Assembly (NCBI GenBank): GCA_002167945.1
Contig: NHDB01000022.1
Span: 8,868-30,367, forward strand
Direction: 5' to 3'
DNA: 21,500 nucleotides
From: Flavobacteriaceae bacterium TMED48
Lineage (GTDB): Bacteria; Bacteroidota; Bacteroidia; Flavobacteriales; Flavobacteriaceae
This document shows, one piece after another, positions 8,702-21,500 of this stretch. Position 1 is the stretch's first letter. Every line of letters starts with the position of its first letter. Below the pieces are notes generated by a model. It was given only the letters and a program-made list of their open reading frames with translations. It had not been told where the DNA came from and did not search any database. The translations under genes and the position numbers were made by a program.

Positions 8702-8783
8702 GCGGGTGTGGTGAAATTGGTAGACACGCTAGATTTAGGATCTAGTGCTTCACGGCGTGGGGGTTCGAGTCCCTTCACCCGCA
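8702..8783 (+). tRNA. tRNA-Leu (anticodon UAG)
   Basis: The acceptor stem pairs GCGGGTG at the 5' end with CACCCGC at the 3' end, followed by A as discriminator. The anticodon stem CTAGA/TCTAG encloses the loop TTTAGGA, giving anticodon UAG at 8736-8738, which reads CUA and, by wobble, other CUN leucine codons. The long variable arm (about 8746-8760) marks it as a class II tRNA, and the T loop is GGTTCGAGTCC. The CCA end is not encoded. It stands alone, with its own promoter box and a downstream terminator. Confidence 0.97.
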
Positions 8784-8788
8784 CACTT

Positions 8789-8895: not shown

Positions 8896-8903
8896 TAAAT
8901 TTG
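8896..8903 (+). promoter_or_regulatory. Candidate -7 box for the cytochrome/DUF1501 cluster
   Basis: TAAATTTG matches TAnnTTTG and lies 52 bases upstream of the first gene of the cluster. No TTG is visible at the expected -33 spacing, so this could be a chance match in AT-rich sequence. Confidence 0.3.
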
Positions 8904-8955
8904 TATTTTAATAGACGAAAACGAAAAAATAAGAAATCAAAAAATAAGTTCCAAA

Positions 8956-11718
8956 ATGAATCGACTGGTCAATTTCGGTATTGTAGGAGTTTGTTTTATA
9001 AGTCTTCTGTTTTTTGGTTCTTGTCAACTTACCAACCAAATTGACTTTAATACTCAAATTAAACCTATAATTAACGAAAAGTGTATTAACTGTCACGGTG
9101 GTGTAAAAAAGAATGCAGGCTTTAGTTTTTTGTTTGAAAAAGATGCTTTAGGGAATACAAAGGAAGGAACACCTGCTATCATTCCTGGGAACTCTAAAAA
9201 AAGTAGGATGATTCAGCGCTTACATGAGACGGATTTGGAATTGCGTATGCCTTACGAAAAACCTCCCTTGAATAAGGAAGAAATAGCGCTTTTTACCAAA
9301 TGGATAGATCAGGGGGCAAAGTGGGGTACACACTGGGCCTATGTCCCTCCAAAAAAAGATAAACTTCCTGAGGTGGACTCCCGATTTAAAAAAGCCAATT
9401 TTCTACAAACACCTATAGATTTTTTTATCGCTGCCAGAATGGAAGATTTAAAGGTAGAGCCCAACGAGGAAGCAAAGACAGATGTGCTTGCTCGCAGACT
9501 GGCTTTTGATGTTACTGGACTTCCTCCCAGACAAGCTCTCTTTGATGCTTACATCCAAAAAGAAATTACTTATGAAAATTATTTAGACAGCCTACTGGCT
9601 CAGTTTAGTTTTGGAGAAAAGTGGGCAAGTTGGTGGTTAGATTTAGCTCGTTATTCAGACACCAAAGGATATGAAGCGGATCGCGGAAGAACCATTTGGC
9701 AATACCGTGATTGGGTGATTAAGGCTCTGAATAAAGATTTAAAGTTCGATGAATTCACCATTCAACAAATTGCAGGAGACCTGCTTGCTAATCCTAGCTA
9801 CGATCAGTTGTTAGCAACTGCATTCCATAGAAATACGATGAATAATGATGAGGGGGGAACCTCCGATGAAGAATACCGAACAGCTGCTGTAATTGATCGG
9901 GTTAATACCACTTTTGACGTGTTTCAAAGCACTACTATGAGTTGTGTTCAGTGTCACGACCACCCCTATGACCCTTTTGTCCAAAAGGAGTATTATCAGC
10001 TAATGTCATTTTTTAATAATACAAGAGATGAGGACCTGATGGATGAAGCCCCTAATCTAAGATCTTACAGCTATGAAAACAATGAGCGAATTGAAAACAT
10101 ATTGGCGTGGATTTTAAAATACGGAGATCAAAAAACACATGATTTTTACAACGATTTTTTCCAATTTTTGGAGCCAAAATATCAAGCGCATAATTCAGTG
10201 GTCTTGAACTCTGACAATGCTTATGTTTCAGGAGTAACCCTTTCTATGCGAAATAAAGGACAGGCTGTTTATAAAAAGGTCAGTACAGATGGTAATCAAA
10301 GCATGTATTTTAAATACAGCCCTACTAAGCATAAGACAATTTTAACTTTTCGTAAAAATAGCCCAAAAGGACCAGTGTTGGGGAGTATACAGTTGAATGA
10401 AGAGGGGAATCCTCAATTCCAAAATTCAAAAAATCAATATGCCAAACTTAAGATTAAAGATATCCAAGAACCTTTTGATTTGTATATAGAAGCTCGAAAC
10501 CCAAAACTGACAACAGACACAAAAAATGGGTACCGTTACAACGATATCGCTGTTTCTCTTCATTGGTTTTCTTTTACTCCTGAACTCCCAGGAAAAGCAA
10601 AGCAGGGTTTTTTCAGTATTGAAAGGGATATTCGCACTGTATTGAATAATCCAGAACACCTCACTCCTATCATGGTTGAAAGTAAAGACTTTATGAAAAG
10701 GAAAACACATTTATTTGACCGGGGGAGTTGGTTGAGTAAAAAGGAAGAGGTTTTTCCTGCTGTTCCCCAAACTTTGAATCCATGGGATAAAGAATTGGAA
10801 AACAATCGACTTGGGCTCGCCAAATGGTTGGTCAGTGAGGAAAACCCCTTAACTGCAAGAACATTGGTTAACAGAGTATGGTATCAGATTTTTGGGAAAG
10901 GATTGGTATTGACATTAGAGGATTTGGGTACTCAATCTGAACCACCCACTCATCCTGCACTTTTGGACTGGTTGGCAGCTGATTTTGTCAGCGGACAAGA
11001 TTGGAGTCTTAAAGGATTGATCAAAATGATTTTGATGTCTGCTACTTACAGACAAAGTTCGACCATAGAGGAAACAAAATACGCTTTAGACCCTGAAAAT
11101 TTATTTTATGCACGAGGACCTAAATTGCGTTTGAGTGCAGAAGAAATAAGAGATCAAGCACTATTTGTATCAAATTTATTAAGCGATAAAAAATACGGTC
11201 CTGGTGTCATGCCCCCGCAACCTGATGGAATTTGGGAGCATGCCTACCTCGGAAATTTATGGAAAGAAAGCAAGGGAGAAGACCGCTACCGCAGGGCGAT
11301 TTATACCTACCTCAAAAGAACCAGTCCCTATCCTTCTTTAATTTCTTTTGATGCAGGAAGCAGGGAAGTGTGCTTGGTTAGAAGATCGCCGAGTAATACT
11401 CCATTACAAGCATTAGTGACTTTAAACGACCCAGTATTTCTCGAAGCGGCGTTGAACCTCGCCAATTTAAACTCAGATTTCCCCAAACGTCAAGCCATAA
11501 AAAAAATGTACAAGACAGCAGTATATCAAGAAATTGATGATCAAATTCTAGACTTGCTGGAAAGACTTTTTGATGAAGCCTATGAGGATTTTGATCAGAC
11601 CCCAGAAAAATTGCAAGACTTCTTTAACCAAGAAAGTGAAGTCGATCAAAAATTAGCAGCTCTGGCTGTGGTAGGGAATGCGATTATGAACTTAGATGAA
11701 TTTTTGACCCATGGATAA
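8956..11718 (+). CDS. PSCyt1/DUF1549/DUF1553 cytochrome-type lipoprotein
   Basis: This 920-residue protein has the architecture abundant in Planctomycetes and Verrucomicrobia. A signal peptide ends in a lipobox (FGSC, C23). A PSCyt1 cytochrome domain follows with CINCH at 43-47 and a later RMPYEKPPL block that could supply the distal methionine. A DUF1549 (PSCyt2) domain spans about 150-350 and contains a second CxxCH motif, CVQCH at 330-334, followed by DHPYDPF. A central region of about 350-600 has no motif I recognise. The C-terminal DUF1553 domain (about 612-880) contains NRVWYQIFGKGLV and SATYRQSS. It should be an envelope lipoprotein with up to two hemes. No catalytic function is established for these domains. 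It overlaps the next gene by eight bases. Confidence 0.9.
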   Translation: MNRLVNFGIVGVCFISLLFFGSCQLTNQIDFNTQIKPIINEKCINCHGGVKKNAGFSFLFEKDALGNTKEGTPAIIPGNSKKSRMIQRLHETDLELRMPYEKPPLNKEEIALFTKWIDQGAKWGTHWAYVPPKKDKLPEVDSRFKKANFLQTPIDFFIAARMEDLKVEPNEEAKTDVLARRLAFDVTGLPPRQALFDAYIQKEITYENYLDSLLAQFSFGEKWASWWLDLARYSDTKGYEADRGRTIWQYRDWVIKALNKDLKFDEFTIQQIAGDLLANPSYDQLLATAFHRNTMNNDEGGTSDEEYRTAAVIDRVNTTFDVFQSTTMSCVQCHDHPYDPFVQKEYYQLMSFFNNTRDEDLMDEAPNLRSYSYENNERIENILAWILKYGDQKTHDFYNDFFQFLEPKYQAHNSVVLNSDNAYVSGVTLSMRNKGQAVYKKVSTDGNQSMYFKYSPTKHKTILTFRKNSPKGPVLGSIQLNEEGNPQFQNSKNQYAKLKIKDIQEPFDLYIEARNPKLTTDTKNGYRYNDIAVSLHWFSFTPELPGKAKQGFFSIERDIRTVLNNPEHLTPIMVESKDFMKRKTHLFDRGSWLSKKEEVFPAVPQTLNPWDKELENNRLGLAKWLVSEENPLTARTLVNRVWYQIFGKGLVLTLEDLGTQSEPPTHPALLDWLAADFVSGQDWSLKGLIKMILMSATYRQSSTIEETKYALDPENLFYARGPKLRLSAEEIRDQALFVSNLLSDKKYGPGVMPPQPDGIWEHAYLGNLWKESKGEDRYRRAIYTYLKRTSPYPSLISFDAGSREVCLVRRSPSNTPLQALVTLNDPVFLEAALNLANLNSDFPKRQAIKKMYKTAVYQEIDDQILDLLERLFDEAYEDFDQTPEKLQDFFNQESEVDQKLAALAVVGNAIMNLDEFLTHG

Positions 11719-13207
11719 TTTAAAGAGACTTTTAGCAGAGAATAAAGAGTTTGAAGCCAGATTGAATAGCAGGCGTCATTTTTTGAAAGATTGTACGCTT
11801 GGGCTTGGAGGAATAGCCCTTGGGAGTTTATTGAATTCTTGTTCTTTTGATCAAAAAAAAGCATACGACTATAGTGCAAGTAGGGCACTAAATCCGATGG
11901 CTCCACTCGCACCACCCTTATCTCCTAAAGTAAAGAGCGTGATTTATTTACACATGGTTGGTGCTCCCTCCCAGTTGGAACTGTTTGATTACAAACCCGA
12001 GTTGGCAAAATTGCACAACAAACCGTGCCCAGCTTCTTTAATAGAGGGGAAGGAGTTTGCTTTTATTGAAGGCGTTCCCAATATGCTAGGCCCCCAAGCT
12101 ACCTTTAAAAAAGCAGGTGATTCAGGAAATTGGGTGTCGAATCATTTGCCTCATTTTAAAAATGTAGTTGATGAAGTTTCCTTTTTAAAAGCAGTTCACA
12201 CAGATCAATTTAACCATGGACCAGCTCAGCTATTAATGTTTACTGGTAGTGCACGATTTGGGAGACCCTCCTTGGGCTCTTGGATAACCTATGGGTTGGG
12301 GTCAGAGAACAACAACCTTCCTGGTTTTGTAGTTTTAACTTCTGGAGGAACTCCCGATGCAGGAAAAAGCCTTTGGGGCAATGGATTTTTACCATCAATA
12401 TATCAAGGAGTTCACTGCAGGTCTAAAGGGGACCCAGTTCTTTATCTCAAAGATCCGAAAGGTATTTCCAGAGACCTGAAAAGGAAAGTAATTCAATCCA
12501 TCAATGAAATAAATTACAAAGAATTTCAAAAGTTTAAAGACCCTGAGGTATTGACTCGAATAAGTCAGTACGAAATGGCATACAGAATGCAAGTCTCCGT
12601 GCCAGAGGTTATGAATATTGACGACGAACCTGAATATATTAAAGAAATGTATGGGGTTAAACCGGGTAAAGAGTCTTTTGCAAATAACTGCCTCTTGGCT
12701 AGGAAAATGGTTGAAAAAGGAGTCCGATTTGTACAGCTATACGACTGGGGATGGGATTCGCATGGGGCAAGTGAATCTGAAGCACTGAGCAAAGGGTTTT
12801 TAAACAAATGCAGAGACATGGACAGACCTGTTGCTGCTTTATTACTCGATTTAAAACAAAGGGGATTATTGGAAGATACCCTAGTGGTATGGGGGGGAGA
12901 ATTTGGAAGAACTCCTATGTGGGAAAACCGTGCTGGAATCCAAAATTCACTAATTGGAAGAGATCACCAAGGAGAGGCATTTACCATGTGGATGGCCGGT
13001 GGTGGGGTTAAAAAAGGATATGTACATGGCGCAACAGATGAAATTGGTTTTAGAGGAGTGAGTGGAAGGGTTTCTGTTCACGATATTCAAGCGACTATAT
13101 TGCACTTACTTGGTTTTGACCATGAACAATTTACTTTTGACTTTCAGGGGCGTCCTTTCCGACTTACAGATGTAGAAGGTCGCGTAATCCATGAAATCCT
13201 ATCCTAA
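11711..13207 (+). CDS. DUF1501 protein with a Tat signal and lipobox
   Basis: DUF1501 proteins have a sulfatase/alkaline-phosphatase-like fold and usually follow a DUF1549/DUF1553 gene, as here. The N-terminus holds an ideal twin-arginine motif, SRRHFLK at 20-26, then a hydrophobic segment rich in glycine and a possible lipobox, LLNSC, with C44. That predicts export in folded form and perhaps lipid anchoring. Family blocks seen include YLHMVGAPSQLELFDYKP, the aspartate- and histidine-rich YDWGWDSHG, WGGEFGRTPM, GRDHQGEAFTMWMAGGGV and VHDIQATILHLLGFD, several of which look like metal-binding positions. The 498-residue length is typical. The substrate is unknown. The start codon lies within the end of the preceding gene, implying translational coupling and probably a functional partnership. 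Confidence 0.9.
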   Translation: MDNLKRLLAENKEFEARLNSRRHFLKDCTLGLGGIALGSLLNSCSFDQKKAYDYSASRALNPMAPLAPPLSPKVKSVIYLHMVGAPSQLELFDYKPELAKLHNKPCPASLIEGKEFAFIEGVPNMLGPQATFKKAGDSGNWVSNHLPHFKNVVDEVSFLKAVHTDQFNHGPAQLLMFTGSARFGRPSLGSWITYGLGSENNNLPGFVVLTSGGTPDAGKSLWGNGFLPSIYQGVHCRSKGDPVLYLKDPKGISRDLKRKVIQSINEINYKEFQKFKDPEVLTRISQYEMAYRMQVSVPEVMNIDDEPEYIKEMYGVKPGKESFANNCLLARKMVEKGVRFVQLYDWGWDSHGASESEALSKGFLNKCRDMDRPVAALLLDLKQRGLLEDTLVVWGGEFGRTPMWENRAGIQNSLIGRDHQGEAFTMWMAGGGVKKGYVHGATDEIGFRGVSGRVSVHDIQATILHLLGFDHEQFTFDFQGRPFRLTDVEGRVIHEILS

Positions 13208-13221
13208 ATCAAAAAGAAAAG

Positions 13222-14100
13222 ATGAAGTACTTTTTGAAGATGTTGATTTTGATGCTCTTGTTTACTCAGTCAGTATGGACACAAAATGAACTTTTATTTT
13301 TTCAAACCAATTGGGGTTTTGAAGGTTCTTGGGAAGCCTTTTTATTAAAAACGAAATCTTCAGGATATGATGGAGTTGAAGTCTGGCTTCCAAAAAATGC
13401 GAGGGTACAGCAAGAGGTTTTTAAGGAATTAAAAAAACATCAATTGAAAGTCATTTATTTATGTGGGACAAACAAAAGTCTTTCCTTTAAAGAGAGTTTG
13501 CTGGCTTACGAGAATGATTTAAAAAGAGCAATTGTACAAAAGCCATATGCGATTAATTCCCATACAGGAAGTGACTTTTTTTCATTTGAACAAAATATGA
13601 AATTTCTTAAGTTGGCGAATGACTTGAGTAATAAATACAATATTCCAATTCATCATGAGACTCATAGGGGGAGGTTTAGTTACGCTCTACCCGAAACAAA
13701 ACGTTATTTAAATTCGGATTCCGCTTTTCGGTTGACCTTAGATATTAGTCATTGGATGGTAGTCCATGAATCTTTGTTAGCAAAGCAACAACAACTTTTA
13801 GATGAGGTGATGGAACGGACTGATCATATTCACGCTCGTGTAGGTTTTGAAGAGGGTCCTCAAGTCAACAACCCTCAAGCTCCAGAGTGGGACAAAGCTT
13901 TAAATCGACATTTGTCAATTTGGGAATCTATCATATTGAGTCACTGGAAAACAGGAAAGCCTATGACCATTACAACTGAATTTGGCCCTCCCAACTATCT
14001 TCCTACAGCTCCTTTTACTCAAAAGCCTTTAAGCGACCAATGGGAGGCGAATGTCTTTATTATGAAAGCAATTAAAGAACAAATGAATATTAGCAATTAA
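13222..14100 (+). CDS. Exported sugar isomerase/epimerase-like TIM-barrel protein
   Basis: A 292-residue protein of the xylose-isomerase-like TIM-barrel superfamily. The metal-binding set expected of active members is visible: a glutamate in IHHETHRGR, the aspartate and histidine of LDISHW, the histidine of HIHARVGF and a final glutamate in TTEFGP. The N-terminus KYFLKMLILMLLFTQSVWTQ is a signal peptide, so it should act outside the cytoplasm, unlike most relatives. It starts 14 bases after the DUF1501 gene, with a purine-rich stretch (AAAAAGAAAAG) directly before the ATG. The setting suggests it works on the same substrate as the cytochrome and DUF1501 proteins, perhaps a sugar or sugar acid. 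The reaction cannot be named from sequence. Confidence 0.85.
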   Translation: MKYFLKMLILMLLFTQSVWTQNELLFFQTNWGFEGSWEAFLLKTKSSGYDGVEVWLPKNARVQQEVFKELKKHQLKVIYLCGTNKSLSFKESLLAYENDLKRAIVQKPYAINSHTGSDFFSFEQNMKFLKLANDLSNKYNIPIHHETHRGRFSYALPETKRYLNSDSAFRLTLDISHWMVVHESLLAKQQQLLDEVMERTDHIHARVGFEEGPQVNNPQAPEWDKALNRHLSIWESIILSHWKTGKPMTITTEFGPPNYLPTAPFTQKPLSDQWEANVFIMKAIKEQMNISN

Positions 14101-14104
14101 TTGT

Positions 14105-15490
14105 ATGGATAGCTTTTTAACATTTATCGGTCGGTTTCATCCTTTGATTGTTCACTTGCCTATAGGTTTTATATTGCTTGCCTTACTTTTAGAATTCAGC
14201 AGAAATAAATTTAAAGAAGCCGAAAAAGTCCTCATATTCATCATGCTATGGGTAATTATAAGCGGATTATTTTCCATTGCGACAGGCTATTTTCAGTACC
14301 TTCAAGAGGGCTATTTATGGGAAACGATTCAAGCTCATTTTTACCTAGGTTTGATAACACTACTGCTGTCGATTGGGTTTTATATTTTCCTAAAGGGGGG
14401 CACAATTTTAAATCAGCTTCCTCGGCTTTTCTTTTCACTTGGACTCTTGCTGAGTATCGTTATTACAGGTCATTTGGGAGGCAATATTACTCATGGGGAG
14501 GATCATTTAACAGAGCCTTTGAAAGAACTCTCATCAACTGTTTTAGGGATTGAAAAGGAGGAAAATGAATTTTCTTTAAATGAAAAAAACTATCGAGAAC
14601 AGCCCATTTACAGTGGAATAATAGCTCCAATACTTTCGAGAAAATGCGTGAGTTGTCACAATACAAAAAGAACCAAAGGAGGCTTGCAAATGCATAGCTA
14701 TGCGGCCTTTCAAAAAGGAGGGAAAAATGGACCCATTGTCAATTATGACAATCCAGAATTGAGTGAGCTATTTGTGAGGATACACCTTCCCCTTGAGCAA
14801 AAAAAACACATGCCCCCTAAGTCTAAAAAACAACTTACTAAAGCCGAGATTAAGCTCATGAGCTATTGGATAGAAGTTGGGGCTCCAGAGGAACAAACAC
14901 TTGGGCAAATTGGTATAGAACGCAACCTAATTGAGCCTTTTCTTTTTAAAGAAGAGGAGCGTTTTTACCCAGAGCTTGAACTTGATGCTCCAGACCCAGA
15001 GACAATCAAAATCTTAGAGTCAAAAGGCATTATTGTTTCCCCAGTAAAACGAGAATCAAATTTTTTAACACTAAGCTCACTCAATGCACCAAAATTCAGT
15101 GTTCAACAACTGCAAAATTTAGAGGGTATTAAGGAGCAATTGGTCAGTATTGACTTGAGTTATAGTTCTGTTAATGACTCTGTATTTATTGCACTAACAA
15201 AGTTTCCCAACTTGGTTCAGATCAAATTAAATCATACCGGGATAACAGGAGACGGGATTGGTTCATTGAGTAAATTAAAAAATTTAAAAAAGCTCTACAT
15301 GGTTGAAACTGCACTTAAAGGTTCTGAACTTTCATCCATTCAAAAATTTCCTTCAATAGAGCAGGTTTTTGTTTTTCAATCAAATAGAAATTTGATTGAA
15401 AAAGTAGAATTAACACCTAGACTTCAATCAATAATTGAATTTGGAGATTATCTGCTCCCCAAATTGCCAAATGAGGAAAACAACGATTAA
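14105..15490 (+). CDS. Membrane protein: DUF2231-like domain, c-type cytochrome, LRR-like tail
   Basis: This 461-residue protein joins three parts. Residues 1-130 hold four membrane helices with histidines at the helix ends (RFHPLIVHLPIGF, then GHLGGNITHGEDH), which resemble DUF2231 and could bind heme b. A soluble PSCyt1-type cytochrome domain follows, with CVSCH at 181-185 and a candidate axial methionine at 236 in HMPP. Residues from about 336 to 440 hold leucine-rich-repeat-like units such as LVSIDLSYSSVND, LVQIKLNHTGITG and LKKLYMVETALKG. Such cytochrome-LRR joins are common in Planctomycetes. It could pass electrons from the periplasmic hemes of this locus into the membrane, which is inference. 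It starts four bases after the isomerase-like gene. A long perfect hairpin lies near its 3' end. Confidence 0.85.
   Translation: MDSFLTFIGRFHPLIVHLPIGFILLALLLEFSRNKFKEAEKVLIFIMLWVIISGLFSIATGYFQYLQEGYLWETIQAHFYLGLITLLLSIGFYIFLKGGTILNQLPRLFFSLGLLLSIVITGHLGGNITHGEDHLTEPLKELSSTVLGIEKEENEFSLNEKNYREQPIYSGIIAPILSRKCVSCHNTKRTKGGLQMHSYAAFQKGGKNGPIVNYDNPELSELFVRIHLPLEQKKHMPPKSKKQLTKAEIKLMSYWIEVGAPEEQTLGQIGIERNLIEPFLFKEEERFYPELELDAPDPETIKILESKGIIVSPVKRESNFLTLSSLNAPKFSVQQLQNLEGIKEQLVSIDLSYSSVNDSVFIALTKFPNLVQIKLNHTGITGDGIGSLSKLKNLKKLYMVETALKGSELSSIQKFPSIEQVFVFQSNRNLIEKVELTPRLQSIIEFGDYLLPKLPNEENND
15372..15403. repeat. Perfect 14-bp inverted repeat inside the cytochrome-LRR gene
   Basis: Bases 15372-15385 are exactly complementary to 15390-15403 around the four-base loop AGAA. 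The hairpin lies wholly in coding sequence, about 90 bases before the stop codon, and ends in A-rich sequence rather than a T run, so it does not look like a forward-strand terminator. On the minus strand the right arm is preceded by CTTTTT and the left arm followed by CAAAAA. Confidence 0.8.
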
Positions 15491-15549
15491 ACGATTTTTA
15501 TGACGCTTGTAAAAATGACTCTAGTTCAAAAGCGTTAACTTTCACACTA

Positions 15550-17028
15550 ATGAAATTACAACCAAGATTAATTCGCCAAATGGGTTTAATGGCCGTTATT
15601 GCAACGGGAGTTTCTTCAATGGTAGGAGCATCTATTAATGTGGTACCTTTTATGATTCATAGAAGCGTACCTATGATTGGTCCTTATGTTATTTGGGCTT
15701 TTATTTTTGCTGCTGTACCAGCACTATTTGCAGGGCTTGCCTATGCTATTCTTGGCTCTGCCATGCCCAGAGCTGGTGGAAGTTATCTCTATGCGAGTAG
15801 AGGTTTAAATCCTTATCTCGGTTTTATAGCAAGTTTTTCGCAGTGGTTTGGTCTTTCTCTTGTTATTGGTGTTATCTCCTATATTTCAATTCCATTTTTA
15901 AGAGATATCGCCTTGAGTTATGATTTTCAAAAACTTGCCTTAGCCTTAGATTCTTCTTGGGTAAGAGTAAGCCTCTCATTAATTTTTATTTGGAGTTTTG
16001 TTTATGTTAATATCAGGGGCATAAAGTCTTATACCAATTTACTTATCCCAATGGTGATTATAATTTTTAGTTTGGGAGCCATAGTGATTCTCTCAGGATT
16101 GTTTTTAGACACGACTGATTTTTTAAACACTTTGGATCCCAGTAAAAGACCCTTGTATCAAAATGCTAATTCAGGGTCTGAATTGAATTGGTATGCCTTT
16201 TTTTCTGCTGCTGCAGTTTTATTTTCAAGCTTTATTGGCTTTGATGCTATTGCGCAAACCGGGAGTGAGGCCGTGAATCCAAAAAAGAATCTCCCTTTGG
16301 CTTTATTAATCGCAATTTTAGGTGTTGGACTTTTTTATTTTCTATTTACCACTTCAGTATATCATATTATCCCTTGGAATTATATAGCTGAACAAGCTCA
16401 AATAAGGGATATTTCAGCTCCAGGATTACTGAGCGCTGTTTTGCCTAAGGGGTTAGATACTTTGATAATTATAGGAGCTACTATTGCGCTTATCAATGAT
16501 CTTCCAGCGATGCTTTTGTCGGTTTCAAGGCTTATGTTCGCTTGGTCTAAAGATGGTATTATTTCTTCTAAAGTCACCACAATTCACCCCGTTTATAAAA
16601 CTCCTGTATATGCCTTAGTTTTAGCTGGCGTAATGGCAACAATTGGTGTTTTAGGATCAAATTTTGCAGGCGATTTTTTTCTTGGGATTGATATTATGGT
16701 CACTTCAATGCTTGTTAACTTTTTATTGATGTGTATTACAGTGTTAACCCTAAAAAAAAAAAATTTCAATTTATATCAAGAAATTAGTGTCTTCAAGAAG
16801 CGTATTTTTCAGCTCATTATCGGCTGGGTAGGTATTATTTTTTTAAGTGGTTTTTTATTGATACATACCTATAAAGATTTAAACAAAGAAGTTGAAGCAT
16901 GGTATTTTCATTCCACCTATATTTGGCTTCTCGTCATGTTACTTGCAAGTATTGTTTTCTTCTTTCGATGGAATCAGCTCAAAAAGTCCAAAGCATTAAC
17001 TCAGTTTAAGAACTTACCTTTAGAATAA
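15550..17028 (+). CDS. APC-superfamily amino acid/polyamine permease
   Basis: A 492-residue protein with about twelve membrane helices and the family signature in helix 1, where IATGVSSMVGASINVVPF stands for the usual GxGxGAGIF-type unwound segment. Further family blocks are SAMPRAGGSYLYASRGLNPYLGF, the helix-6 region FSSFIGFDAIAQTGSEAVNPKKNLP and helix 8 with PAMLLSVSRLMFAWSKDGI. It should take up an amino acid, amine or related compound across the inner membrane with a proton or by exchange. The substrate cannot be told. It lies 59 bases after the cytochrome-LRR gene and its stop codon directly abuts the next ATG. A run of twelve A residues occurs at codons 401-405, upstream of the last two or so helices. 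Confidence 0.9.
   Translation: MKLQPRLIRQMGLMAVIATGVSSMVGASINVVPFMIHRSVPMIGPYVIWAFIFAAVPALFAGLAYAILGSAMPRAGGSYLYASRGLNPYLGFIASFSQWFGLSLVIGVISYISIPFLRDIALSYDFQKLALALDSSWVRVSLSLIFIWSFVYVNIRGIKSYTNLLIPMVIIIFSLGAIVILSGLFLDTTDFLNTLDPSKRPLYQNANSGSELNWYAFFSAAAVLFSSFIGFDAIAQTGSEAVNPKKNLPLALLIAILGVGLFYFLFTTSVYHIIPWNYIAEQAQIRDISAPGLLSAVLPKGLDTLIIIGATIALINDLPAMLLSVSRLMFAWSKDGIISSKVTTIHPVYKTPVYALVLAGVMATIGVLGSNFAGDFFLGIDIMVTSMLVNFLLMCITVLTLKKKNFNLYQEISVFKKRIFQLIIGWVGIIFLSGFLLIHTYKDLNKEVEAWYFHSTYIWLLVMLLASIVFFFRWNQLKKSKALTQFKNLPLE
16752..16763 (+). repeat. A12 homopolymer in the permease gene
   Basis: Twelve consecutive A residues encode three lysines and part of an asparagine codon (LKKKN). It is the longest homopolymer I noticed in the window. 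Slippage by one base would shift the frame and remove the last membrane segments of the permease. Confidence 0.85.
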
Positions 17029-18480
17029 ATGAATAAAACGGCAAAAATTTCCTCAACACTAGAAGTTCCCCGGCTTATTATTGGCCTTTGGCAGATCGCT
17101 GATATGGAGCGTAAAAATCAATATCTCGATTTAAATAAGGCAGCCGATGCCATGATTCCTTACATCCAAGCTGGTTTTACAGCATTTGACATGGCAGATC
17201 ATTATGGCTCAAGTGAAATTATCGCAGGAATCTGTAAAAATAACTCCGATGAAAATGAGCGTATTAAGTTGTTTACAAAATGGGTACCAAAGCCTGGTGC
17301 AATTCAGAAAAAAGAGGTGTATGAGGCCATTTCAATGGCATTGGAAAGAATGCAGCAGAGCAGTATTGATTTATTACAATTTCACGCATGGCAATATTCA
17401 GACCCAAGCTGGCTCGATGCTTTATTTTATTTAAAGGAATTAAAAGAGGAAGGCTTGATTAAAAATATTGGAGTTACAAACTTTGATGCCTACCACTTAC
17501 GTGTTGCACTAAGCAGTGGGATTCCATTGGTGAGCAATCAGATTTCTCATTCAATTTTAGATCGTAGGGCCTTAGGTGAGATGAAAAAAATTTGTGCAGA
17601 TTTCAATATTCATCTTTTGGCCTATGGTACTTTGCTAGGGGGGTTTTTATCAGAAAAATGGCTAAATAAGAAGTTGCCTAAAAAGGTAGAATTATCTACT
17701 TGGTCTCAGATGAAATATATACGTTTTATTGAGCAATCAGGAGGCTGGACGGTTTTTCAAAGGCTTTTATCCTGCTTGGATCAAATCGCTCAAAAGCACC
17801 ATACAACCATACCCATTCTAGCCAGTAGGTTTGTTTTAGAAAACCAGAATGTAGCTGCAGTAATAATAGGTGCACGCCTTGGAGAAAGTGCTCATATTGA
17901 GGACCACAAGGCGCTCCTTGATTTCACTTTTGAGGATGATGACCTCGAAGAAATAGAAAAAGTACTGGCAGAATTAGATCCGGTACCTGGGCATTGTGGC
18001 GATGAATATCGTAAACCACCCTTTCTCACTGCCTCGGGTGATTTGAGTCACCATTTAGAAACTTTTCCTCCTGTTTTTGAAAAACAAATTAAATCTGAAA
18101 CCAGGACGCATGTATACAGCGGTACCGTCTGGGAATCATTTGCGGGCTACGCGAGAGCGGTAAGAAAAGGAAAGACGATCATGGTTTCTGGGACTACAGC
18201 TACCCATGGTAATAAATTAATAGGAGCAAATGATGCTGCTGCACAAACCCATTTTATTATTGATAAAATTGAAGCCGCTATTCAAGCCTTGGGAGGCAGT
18301 TTAGAAGATGTAATTAGAACACGAATTTTTGTTCACAGTTTAGATGATTGGGAAGTTGTTGCCCAAGCACATGGTGTTCGTTTTAAAAACATAGATCCTG
18401 CAAATACATTGGTGCAGGCTAAACTAGTAGGGGAGGGCTATAAAGTGGAAATTGAAGCTGAAGCGCATTTAAATGAATAG
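17029..18480 (+). CDS. Aldo/keto reductase fused to a RidA-like domain
   Basis: Residues 1-320 form an aldo/keto reductase barrel with the full catalytic tetrad: D54 and Y59 in FDMADHYG, K84 in FTKW and H119 in FHAW. A late VIIGARLGESAHIEDH block matches the NADP-binding region. After a linker (about 320-355), residues 358-480 form a YjgF/RidA-type domain, seen in RKGKTIMVSGTTATHG, LGGSLEDVIRTRIFV and a final VEIEAEAHL strand. Active RidA deaminases have arginine in PARS; here the aligned stretch is PANT, so deaminase activity on enamines or imines is not expected. The reductase should convert a carbonyl or lactol with NAD(P)H. With no signal peptide it is cytoplasmic. It starts one base after the permease stop, so the two probably act on one imported compound. 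Confidence 0.9.
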   Translation: MNKTAKISSTLEVPRLIIGLWQIADMERKNQYLDLNKAADAMIPYIQAGFTAFDMADHYGSSEIIAGICKNNSDENERIKLFTKWVPKPGAIQKKEVYEAISMALERMQQSSIDLLQFHAWQYSDPSWLDALFYLKELKEEGLIKNIGVTNFDAYHLRVALSSGIPLVSNQISHSILDRRALGEMKKICADFNIHLLAYGTLLGGFLSEKWLNKKLPKKVELSTWSQMKYIRFIEQSGGWTVFQRLLSCLDQIAQKHHTTIPILASRFVLENQNVAAVIIGARLGESAHIEDHKALLDFTFEDDDLEEIEKVLAELDPVPGHCGDEYRKPPFLTASGDLSHHLETFPPVFEKQIKSETRTHVYSGTVWESFAGYARAVRKGKTIMVSGTTATHGNKLIGANDAAAQTHFIIDKIEAAIQALGGSLEDVIRTRIFVHSLDDWEVVAQAHGVRFKNIDPANTLVQAKLVGEGYKVEIEAEAHLNE

Positions 18481-18481
18481 A

Positions 18482-21400
18482 TTAGTCTTCTAAAGCACTA
18501 ATTTCTTTAGCCCATTTACGTTTAAATTTTGCTACTTTTTCTTCAAATAAATCAATTTGTTTTTCCCCTGCTTCTAATAGTCTCCAATCATCTTCAAAAG
18601 GAATATTTAAGCGGGCTTTTGAAAATTTAAGTGTATTTTTTATCAAACTGTAGGGTGTTATTTTTGAACTTTGCCACGCGCCTACTTGTCTATCCTGGGG
18701 CTGGTCTCTACCCTCTAATTGAAGTTTTTTTAAAGCATTAAGTAACGCAGTATGAGATGTGCTGCCTTGATTTATTTTTTTTAACTTTTCTTCAATCCCA
18801 TGAAGGTAATTCAATATTTTTGCTAGCCGAGCCACTTGTTTATCAGTACTTTTTTGATAAGTATAGAGTGATTGGTCTATATTTTCATCCAAATCAAATC
18901 GAGGATCAGCAACTACCTCTATAGTGGTGCTTTTTGTTTCTCCTTTAAAAGTTAAGACTGCGGTATAATTTCCAGGTAAGACAGGAATACCCCGACTTTC
19001 CTCTGAAATCCAAGATCCTGGAAGCTGGGCACTTTTCTCATCTAATTTCCAGATAAAATAATTAAGTCCATGCTTTAACTCTGTTTGAATACCCGTATTG
19101 ATAACTTCATTTTTTTCATTTTTGATTTCAATACGAACAGTAGCTGACCTATGGGGTTGTTTATTGAGGAAAAAAGGTATTTTTACTTTTTGAAAAACAC
19201 GATTTTCCCCTTCAAATGTGGTATTAAATCCAGTCCATATATTTCCTGGTGGGGCAATAAAAAGTCCTTTTACCTGAACGACCTTATTTATTGTTGGTGC
19301 AATTAGTTCGTCTTTTTTATTTGCCGAAATAAGTGCACGCAGGCTTAATAAGTCATCTAGAATCCAAATGGCCCTCCCAAAAGTACCTACTACCAGTGCT
19401 GACTCTTTTTCTTGAATTGCCAAATCTCGTGTAGAAACAGAAGGGAGTCCATTTCTAAATTGCGTCCAATTTTGGCCTGTATCAATGCTAATCCATAATC
19501 CATTTTCAGTACCTAAAAAAAGCAGCTTTGGTTCTACAGGATCTTGAATAAAAGAAAGGGTATAGCCTTTTACCTGTGTTGAATCCACCATTGAGCTCCA
19601 AGTTTTCCCATAATCAGTCGTTCTAAATAAATAGGGTTTATAATCCCCTTTGCGGTAATTATTAGCAATCACCCATGCTGTTCCTTCCTGATAGCTAGAT
19701 GCTTTTATTCGAGCAATCCATGCTTCTTTTGGAAGTCCTTTAACCTGAGAAGTAAGATTGATCCAATTTGCTCCTCCATTTGTGGTCAATTGAATTTGTC
19801 CATCATCTGTACCTACCCAAAGGATCTTTTGATTCAATGGGCTTGGTGCAATTGAGAGAATACTGGTATAGTTTTCTGCACCAGAAATATCAAGTGTCAA
19901 GCCGCCATAGTCCCTTCTTTGATAGGTTGGATTATTTGTTGTTAAGTCAGGGGAAATGATTTCCCAATGCCTTCCTTTATCTTTAGATTTATGAACAAAT
20001 TGAGAGCCGTAATATACGCCATTATGGTAAAAAGGATCTTTAGCAAACCCAGCATTCCAATTAAATCGTAATGGGGTTTTTCCGTCAGGAGATTGTGGAG
20101 CAATACTCTGGTAATACCCACTTACTTTATCATAGCGGTATAAATCACCATTTTGAGAGGTACCATAGCCAAAACGAGAATTTTCTTTATCAGGCGCAAT
20201 ATAAAAGCCGTCCCCTCCAACGAGATATTGCCAGTATAGTGTTCTTATGCCGCCCCTTTTCCAGGTATAGGCAGGTCCTGACCAGTTACCATTATCTTGC
20301 ATACCACCATAGACATTAAATGGGGTATCCTCATCTGTATTAATTTGATAAAATTGAGCTAAGGGAAGAGTTTCAGGGAAATACCAACTTTTACCATGAT
20401 CTCTCGTAATACCAAGCCCCCCATCACCCCCGATTATAAAGTGCTCTGGGTCATTCGGGTTAATCCATATTGCATGAAAATCGGCATGAATTCCCTTTGT
20501 TTCATCTGCTGGAATCATGGGTTTAGAATCAAAAGTTTTCCCTCCGTCATAGCTAACAAAAAGTGGCTGATAAATATTGTATAATCGATCAGGATCTTTT
20601 GTATCTACAGCTAAATCTTGAAAATAAAAAGGACGATTATTTGTAAATTTTGGATTGTCATTGACTACATCCCAATTCTCCCCCCCATCATCACTGCGGT
20701 ATAGGAGATTTTTTTTCGCTTCAACTTTGGCATAAATTCTATTGGGATCACTAGGGGCGATGGCGATCCCAATTCTGCCAAGTGGATCTTTTGAAAAACC
20801 ATTTTCAGCTCCTATTTTCCTCCAGCTTTCACCTCCGTCCTCAGACATAAATAAGCCTGAGCCGCTTCCGCCAGAGACAAAAGAATAGGGTGTTCTTTTG
20901 TGATCGTAAAGCGCAGCAAATAATTTATTAGAGTCAGAAGGATCCATTACTAAATCTGCTACTCCTGATGTAGGAGTGGTAAATAAAATTTTTTTCCAAG
21001 TGAGGCCTCCATCTGTTGTTTTGTATAAGCCACGGTCTGGGCCAGCAGTAAAGGGGTCTCCCATAGCCCCAACATAAATTTTATTACCGTCTTTGGGATC
21101 GATAAGAATGCGGTGTATGGTCTTAGTTTTTTCAAGCCCCATAAATTCCCAGTTTTTACCCCCGTCTATTGATTTAAAGAGTCCCATACCCAAATTCATA
21201 GAGTTTCTTGGGTTGCCCTCACCTGTGCCAACCCAAATCACATTTTGATTGGTCTGTTGTATTGCTATTGCACCAATATTTTGGGTTGGTTGCTCATCAA
21301 AAACAGGAGACCAAGCACTCCCACCGTTTTCAGATTTCCAAACACCTCCTGAGGCGGCTCCTATAAAAATGATTTTTGGGTTAGTAACTAAGGCATCAAT

Positions 21401-21500
21401 AGCGGTAATACGACCACTCATATTCGCTGGTCCGATCGCTCTTATCTGTAAGTTTTCTAGCTTGCTAAAATCTAATTCTTGTGCTTGAGAAAATAGACCA
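18482..21500 (-). CDS. Secreted Asp-box/sortilin-type beta-propeller protein, 5' end outside the window
   Basis: The minus-strand frame stays open to the window edge, giving at least 1005 residues. Reading in from the edge, LFSQAQELDF looks like the end of a signal peptide, followed by IRAIGPANMSGRITAID, the usual first strand of this family. The internal ATG at 21421 is therefore not the start. About eleven Asp-box (BNR) motifs are spread over roughly the first 700 residues, among them SENGGSAW, SIDGGKNW, TTDGGLTW, SEDGGESW, SDDGGENW and TTDYGKTW. They imply two stacked propellers like the VPS10/sortilin fold or family GH74. After that come a beta-rich region and a helical, lysine-rich C-terminus (about 860-1005). 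No type IX secretion tail is obvious. It may bind or cut carbohydrate or peptide. It converges on the reductase-RidA gene with one base between. Confidence 0.85.
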   Translation of the reverse strand, partial: GLFSQAQELDFSKLENLQIRAIGPANMSGRITAIDALVTNPKIIFIGAASGGVWKSENGGSAWSPVFDEQPTQNIGAIAIQQTNQNVIWVGTGEGNPRNSMNLGMGLFKSIDGGKNWEFMGLEKTKTIHRILIDPKDGNKIYVGAMGDPFTAGPDRGLYKTTDGGLTWKKILFTTPTSGVADLVMDPSDSNKLFAALYDHKRTPYSFVSGGSGSGLFMSEDGGESWRKIGAENGFSKDPLGRIGIAIAPSDPNRIYAKVEAKKNLLYRSDDGGENWDVVNDNPKFTNNRPFYFQDLAVDTKDPDRLYNIYQPLFVSYDGGKTFDSKPMIPADETKGIHADFHAIWINPNDPEHFIIGGDGGLGITRDHGKSWYFPETLPLAQFYQINTDEDTPFNVYGGMQDNGNWSGPAYTWKRGGIRTLYWQYLVGGDGFYIAPDKENSRFGYGTSQNGDLYRYDKVSGYYQSIAPQSPDGKTPLRFNWNAGFAKDPFYHNGVYYGSQFVHKSKDKGRHWEIISPDLTTNNPTYQRRDYGGLTLDISGAENYTSILSIAPSPLNQKILWVGTDDGQIQLTTNGGANWINLTSQVKGLPKEAWIARIKASSYQEGTAWVIANNYRKGDYKPYLFRTTDYGKTWSSMVDSTQVKGYTLSFIQDPVEPKLLFLGTENGLWISIDTGQNWTQFRNGLPSVSTRDLAIQEKESALVVGTFGRAIWILDDLLSLRALISANKKDELIAPTINKVVQVKGLFIAPPGNIWTGFNTTFEGENRVFQKVKIPFFLNKQPHRSATVRIEIKNEKNEVINTGIQTELKHGLNYFIWKLDEKSAQLPGSWISEESRGIPVLPGNYTAVLTFKGETKSTTIEVVADPRFDLDENIDQSLYTYQKSTDKQVARLAKILNYLHGIEEKLKKINQGSTSHTALLNALKKLQLEGRDQPQDRQVGAWQSSKITPYSLIKNTLKFSKARLNIPFEDDWRLLEAGEKQIDLFEEKVAKFKRKWAKEISALED

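Follow-up and report, generated by a model that had tools for sequence, protein, structure and literature searches.

PSCyt1, PSCyt2 and PSD1 genes with DUF1501 neighbours are known from planctomycetes. In Verrucomicrobia, PSCyt genes come with carbohydrate-binding modules (CBMs), have sulfatases in their vicinity and adjoin an unknown family, and the available part of the paper gives the function of the PSCyt and DUF domains as unknown (PMC5615132). Our literature search returned no paper naming DUF1501 and DUF1553 together. In the accessible text of another source, LacABC and DUF1080 stand for sugar oxidation outside the cytoplasm with membrane-bound components (PMC9007349). Here, we analysed a stretch of 21,500 nucleotides (the window) from Flavobacteriaceae bacterium TMED48 (contig NHDB01000022.1, positions 8,868 to 30,367), which holds two separable units, module A (g1 to g4, 8956-15490) and module B (g5 and g6, 15550-18480). 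Module A is a variant of the known, functionally orphan PSCyt/PSD1 kind. Its g1 and g2 resemble the planctomycete proteins and score far above the Pfam cut-offs, whereas a fixed four-gene order, an exported TIM barrel, a predicted membrane b/c-type cytochrome and the occurrence in Bacteroidota set it apart. With LacABC and DUF1080 it shares the idea of extracytoplasmic sugar oxidation, but it contains neither a GMC dehydrogenase nor DUF1080. An identity with the LacABC glycoside 3-dehydrogenase was rejected because Pfam found no GMC domain in g1 to g6.

Two modules at a tRNA-Leu site

The host draft assembly has 1.77 Mb in 57 contigs and is 82.8% complete; the end of the window is the contig end. 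Six co-directional open reading frames (ORFs), separated by -8, 14, 4, 59 and 0 bases, were reproduced as a sequence-only reading of the window had described them, and the domains it had named were borne out by Pfam scores.

8956..11718, + strand: g1, exported PSCyt1-DUF1549-[CBM6-like]-DUF1553 protein with two CXXCH motifs (ORF, Pfam; CBM6-like fold predicted)
11711..13207, + strand: g2, DUF1501 protein with a Tat-type N terminus and a predicted alkaline phosphatase/sulfatase fold (Pfam, alignment, predicted model)
13222..14100, + strand: g3, exported xylose-isomerase-like TIM barrel (ORF, Pfam below cut-off, alignment)
14105..15490, + strand: g4, four-helix DUF2231-like membrane domain, PSCyt1 c haem and leucine-rich repeat (LRR) (Pfam, alignment)
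15550..17028, + strand: g5, APC-family permease (Pfam)
17029..18480, + strand: g6, aldo-keto reductase (AKR) fused to a Rid domain (Pfam, alignment)

PSCyt1, DUF1549 and DUF1553 were all far above cut-off in g1, which places it in the PSCyt/PSD1 group, and so was DUF1501 in g2. AP_endonuc_2 stayed under its gathering score in g3 (23.5 vs 31.1 bits). For g4, PSCyt1 was over the cut-off, DUF2231 slightly under (25.6 vs 26.4) and LRR_4 under. AA_permease_2 was found in g5, and Aldo_ket_red and Ribonuc_L-PSP in g6. NCBIfam gave no family for g1, g2 or g3 at E 0.001.

The six-gene layout is more than chance because same-order homologues of every gene exist elsewhere. The linkage of the modules was followed in a genus set of 37 genomes, many of them incomplete. 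Module A was counted by a full-length g4 of at least 37% identity (22 genomes), to which G032 was added, whose g4 runs off the contig end, and module B by g6 at 67% identity or more, the G005 copy being cut by the contig end. A was present in 23 genomes, B in 12 and both in 8 (co-presence, Fisher p = 1). The two were adjacent in three genomes (G000, which is the host, G022 and G026) and apart in five (G005, G019, G025, G034 and G036). The sequence-only reading had joined the six genes in one route and had named in advance, as the outcome that would speak against it, a lack of linkage between the last two genes and the first four in related genomes. This lack was found both within the genus and outside it: the block of six was complete in only 3 of the 22 testable genus loci of A (G032 being cut by the contig end) and in 0 of 7 outside the genus.

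The place where the modules meet is marked by a tRNA gene.

8702..8784, + strand: tRNA-Leu (ARAGORN), left edge, marking the site of A, B or both

ARAGORN found this tRNA-Leu in all six scanned related loci that have this flank (L145, L146, L147, L148, L153 and L175). In G021, a close sister with g1 to g4 96-100% identical, A stands at the site without B, and the gene order is ruvC, hemW, M20 peptidase, tRNA-Leu, g1 to g4, a 336-residue protein, a 200-residue protein and a MoaA-like protein. There g5 to g7 are missing from the site, and a g6 orthologue was not found in the genome, which is 75% complete. G036 shares the left flank and tRNA-Leu, behind which come g5-g6-g7, a 558-residue protein and the same right-flank genes; g1 to g4 are not there and lie on a different contig. 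The G021 and G036 patterns show that each module is present or absent independently at one place, and A adjoins B in the window because both occupy the same tRNA-Leu-linked site. The site also adjoins an M20 peptidase gene, and gene modules are gained or lost there. In G012, A lies near a tRNA-Val.

The same separation was seen from the side of module B. We kept 80 of 89 g6 loci, and among the 65 with at least 3.1 kb upstream of g6 only one had any of g1, g2 or g4; this one, L077, is G022's own contig. Conversely, g5 or g6 was found within 17 kb of none of the 7 A loci outside the genus.

Consensus scans of the window gave no excess of promoter-like sites (42 vs 36.9 +/- 5.7) or of terminator-like sites (10 vs 12.3 +/- 3.7), and no terminator-like site was found in the 59-base gap between g4 and g5. 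None of 10 loci had the pattern TTG-N16-24-TAnnTTTG in the 260 bases before g5, so that no promoter was assigned to g5; the pattern was absent upstream of g1 in 11 loci as well.

Two observations at phylum level speak against a complete separation. A and g6 co-occur in two genomes of the phylum sample (G122 and G207), on different contigs; this is 2 of the 7 A genomes among 197, where well under 1 was expected (p = 0.006, uncorrected for kinship). DUF1501 and g6 co-occur in three genomes of the sample (p = 0.0045, likewise uncorrected). Shared lifestyle or ancestry could explain these co-occurrences, as might functional interplay.

This co-occurrence, together with the collinearity of g1 to g6 in G000, G022 and G026 (g4-g5 gaps of 58-59 bases), is what favours a single six-gene route. 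All linkage evidence on A and B contradicts it, as does the occurrence of g6 without A in Bacteroidota and as far afield as records labelled Gemmatimonadota, Acidobacteriota and Chloroflexi. We discarded the single pathway on the linkage evidence and regard it as most improbable, and the division into modules A and B as virtually certain. What stands of the earlier route is chemistry outside the cytoplasm with electrons passing to haem, a fair reading of g1 to g4; the link it drew to the permease and the AKR-Rid fusion is unsupported. Short gaps here join units of separate histories, which calls for caution in reading a pathway from one window.

Proteins of module A and a possible envelope redox route

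Haem and membrane features were located in g1 and g4.

9082..9096, + strand: first haem site of g1, CINCH, residues 43-47, with the invariant M98-P99 as likely distal ligand
9943..9957, + strand: second haem site of g1, CVQCH, residues 330-334, in DUF1549 (CXXCH motif)
10171..10584, + strand: predicted CBM6-like beta-sandwich of g1, residues about 406-543, between DUF1549 and DUF1553
14123..14494, + strand: membrane domain of g4, residues 7-130, with H12, H17, H78, H123 and H130 invariant
14645..14659, + strand: c haem site of g4, CVSCH, residues 181-185, with invariant M236

Both CXXCH sites of g1 were invariant in 38 of 38 sequences. The module between DUF1549 and DUF1553 was undetected by Pfam, and its beta-sandwich fold is predicted by the structural model. 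This module and the second CXXCH of g1 had escaped the sequence-only reading, as had an Asn in place of the RidA Arg105 in g6. A PDB search with the g1 sequence gave no match at E 1, and none of the Foldseek or VIA matches listed spans the haem domains, which were not folded separately.

The alignment of g4 comprised 28 of the 31 mapped g4 ORFs and that of the window. H12, H17, H78, H123 and H130, the last just past transmembrane helix 4, were invariant in 29 of 29 sequences, and so were the CVSCH motif and M236. By these residues, the DUF2231-like domain is a candidate for a b-type cytochrome that has gone unrecognised.

We tentatively propose that module A is an envelope redox system performing quinone-linked chemistry on carbohydrate outside the cytoplasm. 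At the membrane, g1 would bind a sugar by its CBM6-like module and carry two c haems. The g4 protein would combine a c haem of the His/Met type with a four-helix domain that probably holds a b haem through the invariant histidines, and with these two haems it would link g1 to the quinone pool. The likeliest direction of the electrons would be from the sugar to the g1 haems, to g4 and to quinone, with g3 acting on the keto product.

The flow might also be reversed, from quinol through g4 to g1, whose two haems would then activate O2 or H2O2 against a polysaccharide or surface molecule. Two haems, a carbohydrate-binding module and a membrane b/c cytochrome would suit such a reductase-fed oxidase, and the second g1 site has an invariant 'CQxCH-x-H' unlike the first. 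Against this, the g1 haem domains matched no known two-haem oxidase in sequence or fold, the 920-residue model not having been searched by domain. We consider the reversed direction quite unlikely.

In g3, the metal-type residues H145, E146, H148, D174, H177, H204 and E253 were invariant in 13 of 13 sequences. The g3 sequence alone had no PDB match at E 0.01. Searched as a profile, it found AsbF as the only solved relative under E 0.01 (E 2.4e-4), and the E-T-H motif is common to both. According to the available part of the source, the C- and O-glycoside beta-eliminases PuCGE and AtOGE are, like g3, TIM barrels in which a catalytic His lies close to a Glu/His-Asp-His-Glu metal set (PMC10628242); AsbF joins them by the profile match. 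From all of these g3 differs by its export and its tie to cytochromes. In the proposed redox system, g3 would be a metal-dependent enzyme that eliminates, hydrates or isomerises a keto-sugar.

These similarities bear on a 3-keto-glycoside route, in which a separate, LacABC-like dehydrogenase would oxidise C3 outside, g1 and g4 would carry the electrons, and the resulting 3-keto-sugar would be cleaved or rearranged by g3 in the manner of the Mn-dependent TIM-barrel beta-eliminases. The route is attractive because these eliminases share the residue set and because extracytoplasmic 3-keto chemistry is found in Bacteroidetes, where LacABC and DUF1080 are paired, as far as the accessible text goes (PMC9007349). 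E146, D174, H204 and E253 with H148 match in kind and rough spacing the AtOGE ligands H132, D163, H189 and E233 with the catalytic H134 given in the available excerpt (PMC10628242). On the A contig of G034, genes for a GMC oxidoreductase, PfkB and KDPG aldolase lie beside A. Genes for 3-keto-disaccharide hydrolase (DUF1080) were present in 25 of 25 searched genomes; they are not confined to those with A1 and therefore do not discriminate. Other points count against this route: the metal ligands are shared across the TIM-barrel superfamily, module A has no dehydrogenase, and the g3 profile had no direct CGE/OGE match in the PDB at E 1. The 3-keto-glycoside route is rather doubtful.

The predicted model of g2 has the fold of the alkaline phosphatase superfamily, to which sulfatases and NPP enzymes belong. 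It probably differs from the sulfatases at the nucleophile: the invariant His169 lies 9 residues from a TG, the same distance as the sulfatase Cys, and so stands by spacing where that Cys would be. E397, D418, H419, D349, H351 and D458 were invariant in 27 of 27 sequences. A formylglycine sulfatase was rejected, as the C-x-[PA]-x-R nucleophile motif occurred in 0 of 27 rows. A PDB sequence search with g2 gave a single match, 3vxb at E 0.2. In the proposed system, this sulfatase-fold partner without the usual nucleophile may be an accessory hydrolase-like or binding protein.

Conservation, variants and surroundings of module A

The g1-g2 pair was collinear in 23 of 23 A genomes of the genus. 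Outside the genus, g1-g2-g3-g4 occurred in the same order at 7 of 16 loci with a g3 homologue, and the other 9 had no g1, g2 or g4; a g3 profile search of a 198-genome drawn phylum sample gave matches in 15 genomes. Module A is also carried by G191 and G239, two genera of the same family. At L200, the order g1 to g4 is kept except for an 833-residue ORF inserted between g1 and g2 (L200:4072-6573).

A paralogous module, A2, is present in the host genome itself (G000:C4), where g1', g2' and g4' flank a 351-residue Tat-type protein with NHL/propeller matches instead of g3. The same layout was found in G003 and G007.

L143:9278-16372, L176:1733-8845 and L177:5571-12739: A2 module, NHL/propeller protein replacing the TIM barrel (Pfam for L143)

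From the A2 layout and the losses of g3 described below, it follows that g1, g2 and g4 form the core and that the third slot varies.

Upstream of g1, a candidate control element was noted.

8898..8908, + strand: candidate promoter/operator element of A, AATTnGTA[AT][CT]TT, upstream of g1

Of the closest group of 10 A loci, which have differing upstream genes, 9 have it; it is missing from all 13 more distant A loci and from all 3 A2-type loci, and it has a single match in the window. The pattern was picked after viewing the loci, and its background of 13 matches in 1.34 million strand-bases includes them.

Single A loci adjoin genes for a sulfatase, GH2, aldose epimerase, Gfo/Idh/MocA, GH109 or galactokinase, and others genes for PfkB, KDPG aldolase, IlvD/Edd or DHDPS-family proteins. 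For the neighbour tally, 134 of 149 ORFs were used (15 long or end-cut ones dropped) together with the inserted ORF of L200. The control set, mostly from the same genomes, comprised 128 of 188 ORFs, which remained from an even pick of 143 after removal of 15 end-cut ones. The rows of the neighbour set are not independent, since the three A2 loci and some loci related to one another are among them, and the tally was taken among the 25 commonest families.

Several observations weigh against a carbohydrate oxidation by module A. The enrichment of sugar genes is weak, with Gfo/Idh/MocA in 6 of 135 ORFs near A against at most 1 of 128 in the control (p 0.03-0.12), and several A loci lie amid housekeeping genes (tRNA synthetases, Tol-Pal-like, UbiE/FAA hydrolase). 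Within A there is no flavin or other known sugar dehydrogenase. The predicted model of g2 is of modest quality (predicted local distance difference test 63.7). Finally, g3 was found in 20 of 23 genus loci of A and was absent in G023, G024 and G025; because of these three loci and the NHL protein of A2, g3 is non-essential to the core. The DUF1080 genes in all searched genomes, with or without A1, count on the same side.

The housekeeping surroundings of many A loci would suit a role in maintaining the cell envelope or a surface polysaccharide rather than in nutrition. Partly available sources report DUF1501 paired with DUF1800 beside bacterial chitin synthases (PMC5122149) and stress-responsive PSCyt2/PSD1 genes in R. 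baltica (PMC2754498). The patchy occurrence of A (23 of 37 genus genomes, 7 of 197 in the phylum sample) and the predicted CBM6-like module fit a dispensable trait instead, and we regard the maintenance role as unlikely.

For the statement that A and B are separate and that A works as the proposed redox system, taken jointly, we see the chances as evenly balanced; the redox mechanism by itself we judge somewhat less likely than not. A bolder version, in which A would be a new class of quinone-linked c-haem machine for the oxidation or oxidative cleavage of carbohydrate, with g1 as the haem enzyme, g4 as the wiring and g3 for finishing, is doubtful. If true, thousands of orphan PSCyt/PSD1 and DUF1501 proteins would thereby gain a function; at E <= 1e-20, database matches numbered at least 7,979 for g1-like and at least 8,000 for g2-like proteins. 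The compact, dispensable four-gene version in Bacteroidota, with its predicted CBM and likely membrane electron link, offers a knock-out test of this long-open function.

Module B and its neighbours

In 56 of 79 loci, g5 is the gene immediately before g6. The g6 fusion was present at full or near-full length in 74 loci examined, in records labelled Bacteroidota, Gemmatimonadota, Acidobacteriota, Chloroflexi, Calditrichota and others. The catalytic tetrad of AKRs is Asp/Tyr/Lys/His. Aligned to solved AKRs, g6 has this tetrad as D54 (74 of 74 readable sequences) and Y59, K84 and H119 (75 of 75).

The Rid half of g6 is like the Rid family in its Ribonuc_L-PSP domain, with 3i7t as the closest solved protein, and unlike it in being fused to an AKR and in the residue that replaces Arg105, which is Asn in all 72 readable sequences. 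Of five solved Rid proteins in the alignment, four have Arg here. Loss of Arg105 almost abolishes imine hydrolysis by RidA, according to the available part of the paper (PMC4433059). A RidA deaminase was therefore rejected for the Rid half, whose Arg105 equivalent is lost. Among the literature matches listed for AKR with Rid terms, the one that names both AKR and RidA describes no fusion in its available text. The g5 permease may import a small amine or amino-acid-like compound, a substrate guessed from the permease family, and the AKR half of g6 would reduce a carbonyl.

On the other side of g6 lies a convergent gene, the last feature of the list.

18482..21421, - strand: g7, exported sortilin/BNR-type beta-propeller (Pfam), convergent with g6

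Of 72 loci, 21 have it convergent to g6 at a distance of no more than 1.2 kb, and it accompanies B, not A. A cluster of proteins of about 558 residues is encoded near g6 in 19 of 80 loci, and in G003 a 558-residue protein next to B was scored as DUF885.

At L148:4164-5039, a C-terminal Rid domain follows some 175 residues in which Pfam found no domain, and the gene adjoins those for a creatininase-family protein and an SSF transporter. At L028 and L079, the AKR-Rid gene was found in records titled as a Bifidobacterium breve metagenome-assembled genome, and these taxon labels look doubtful.

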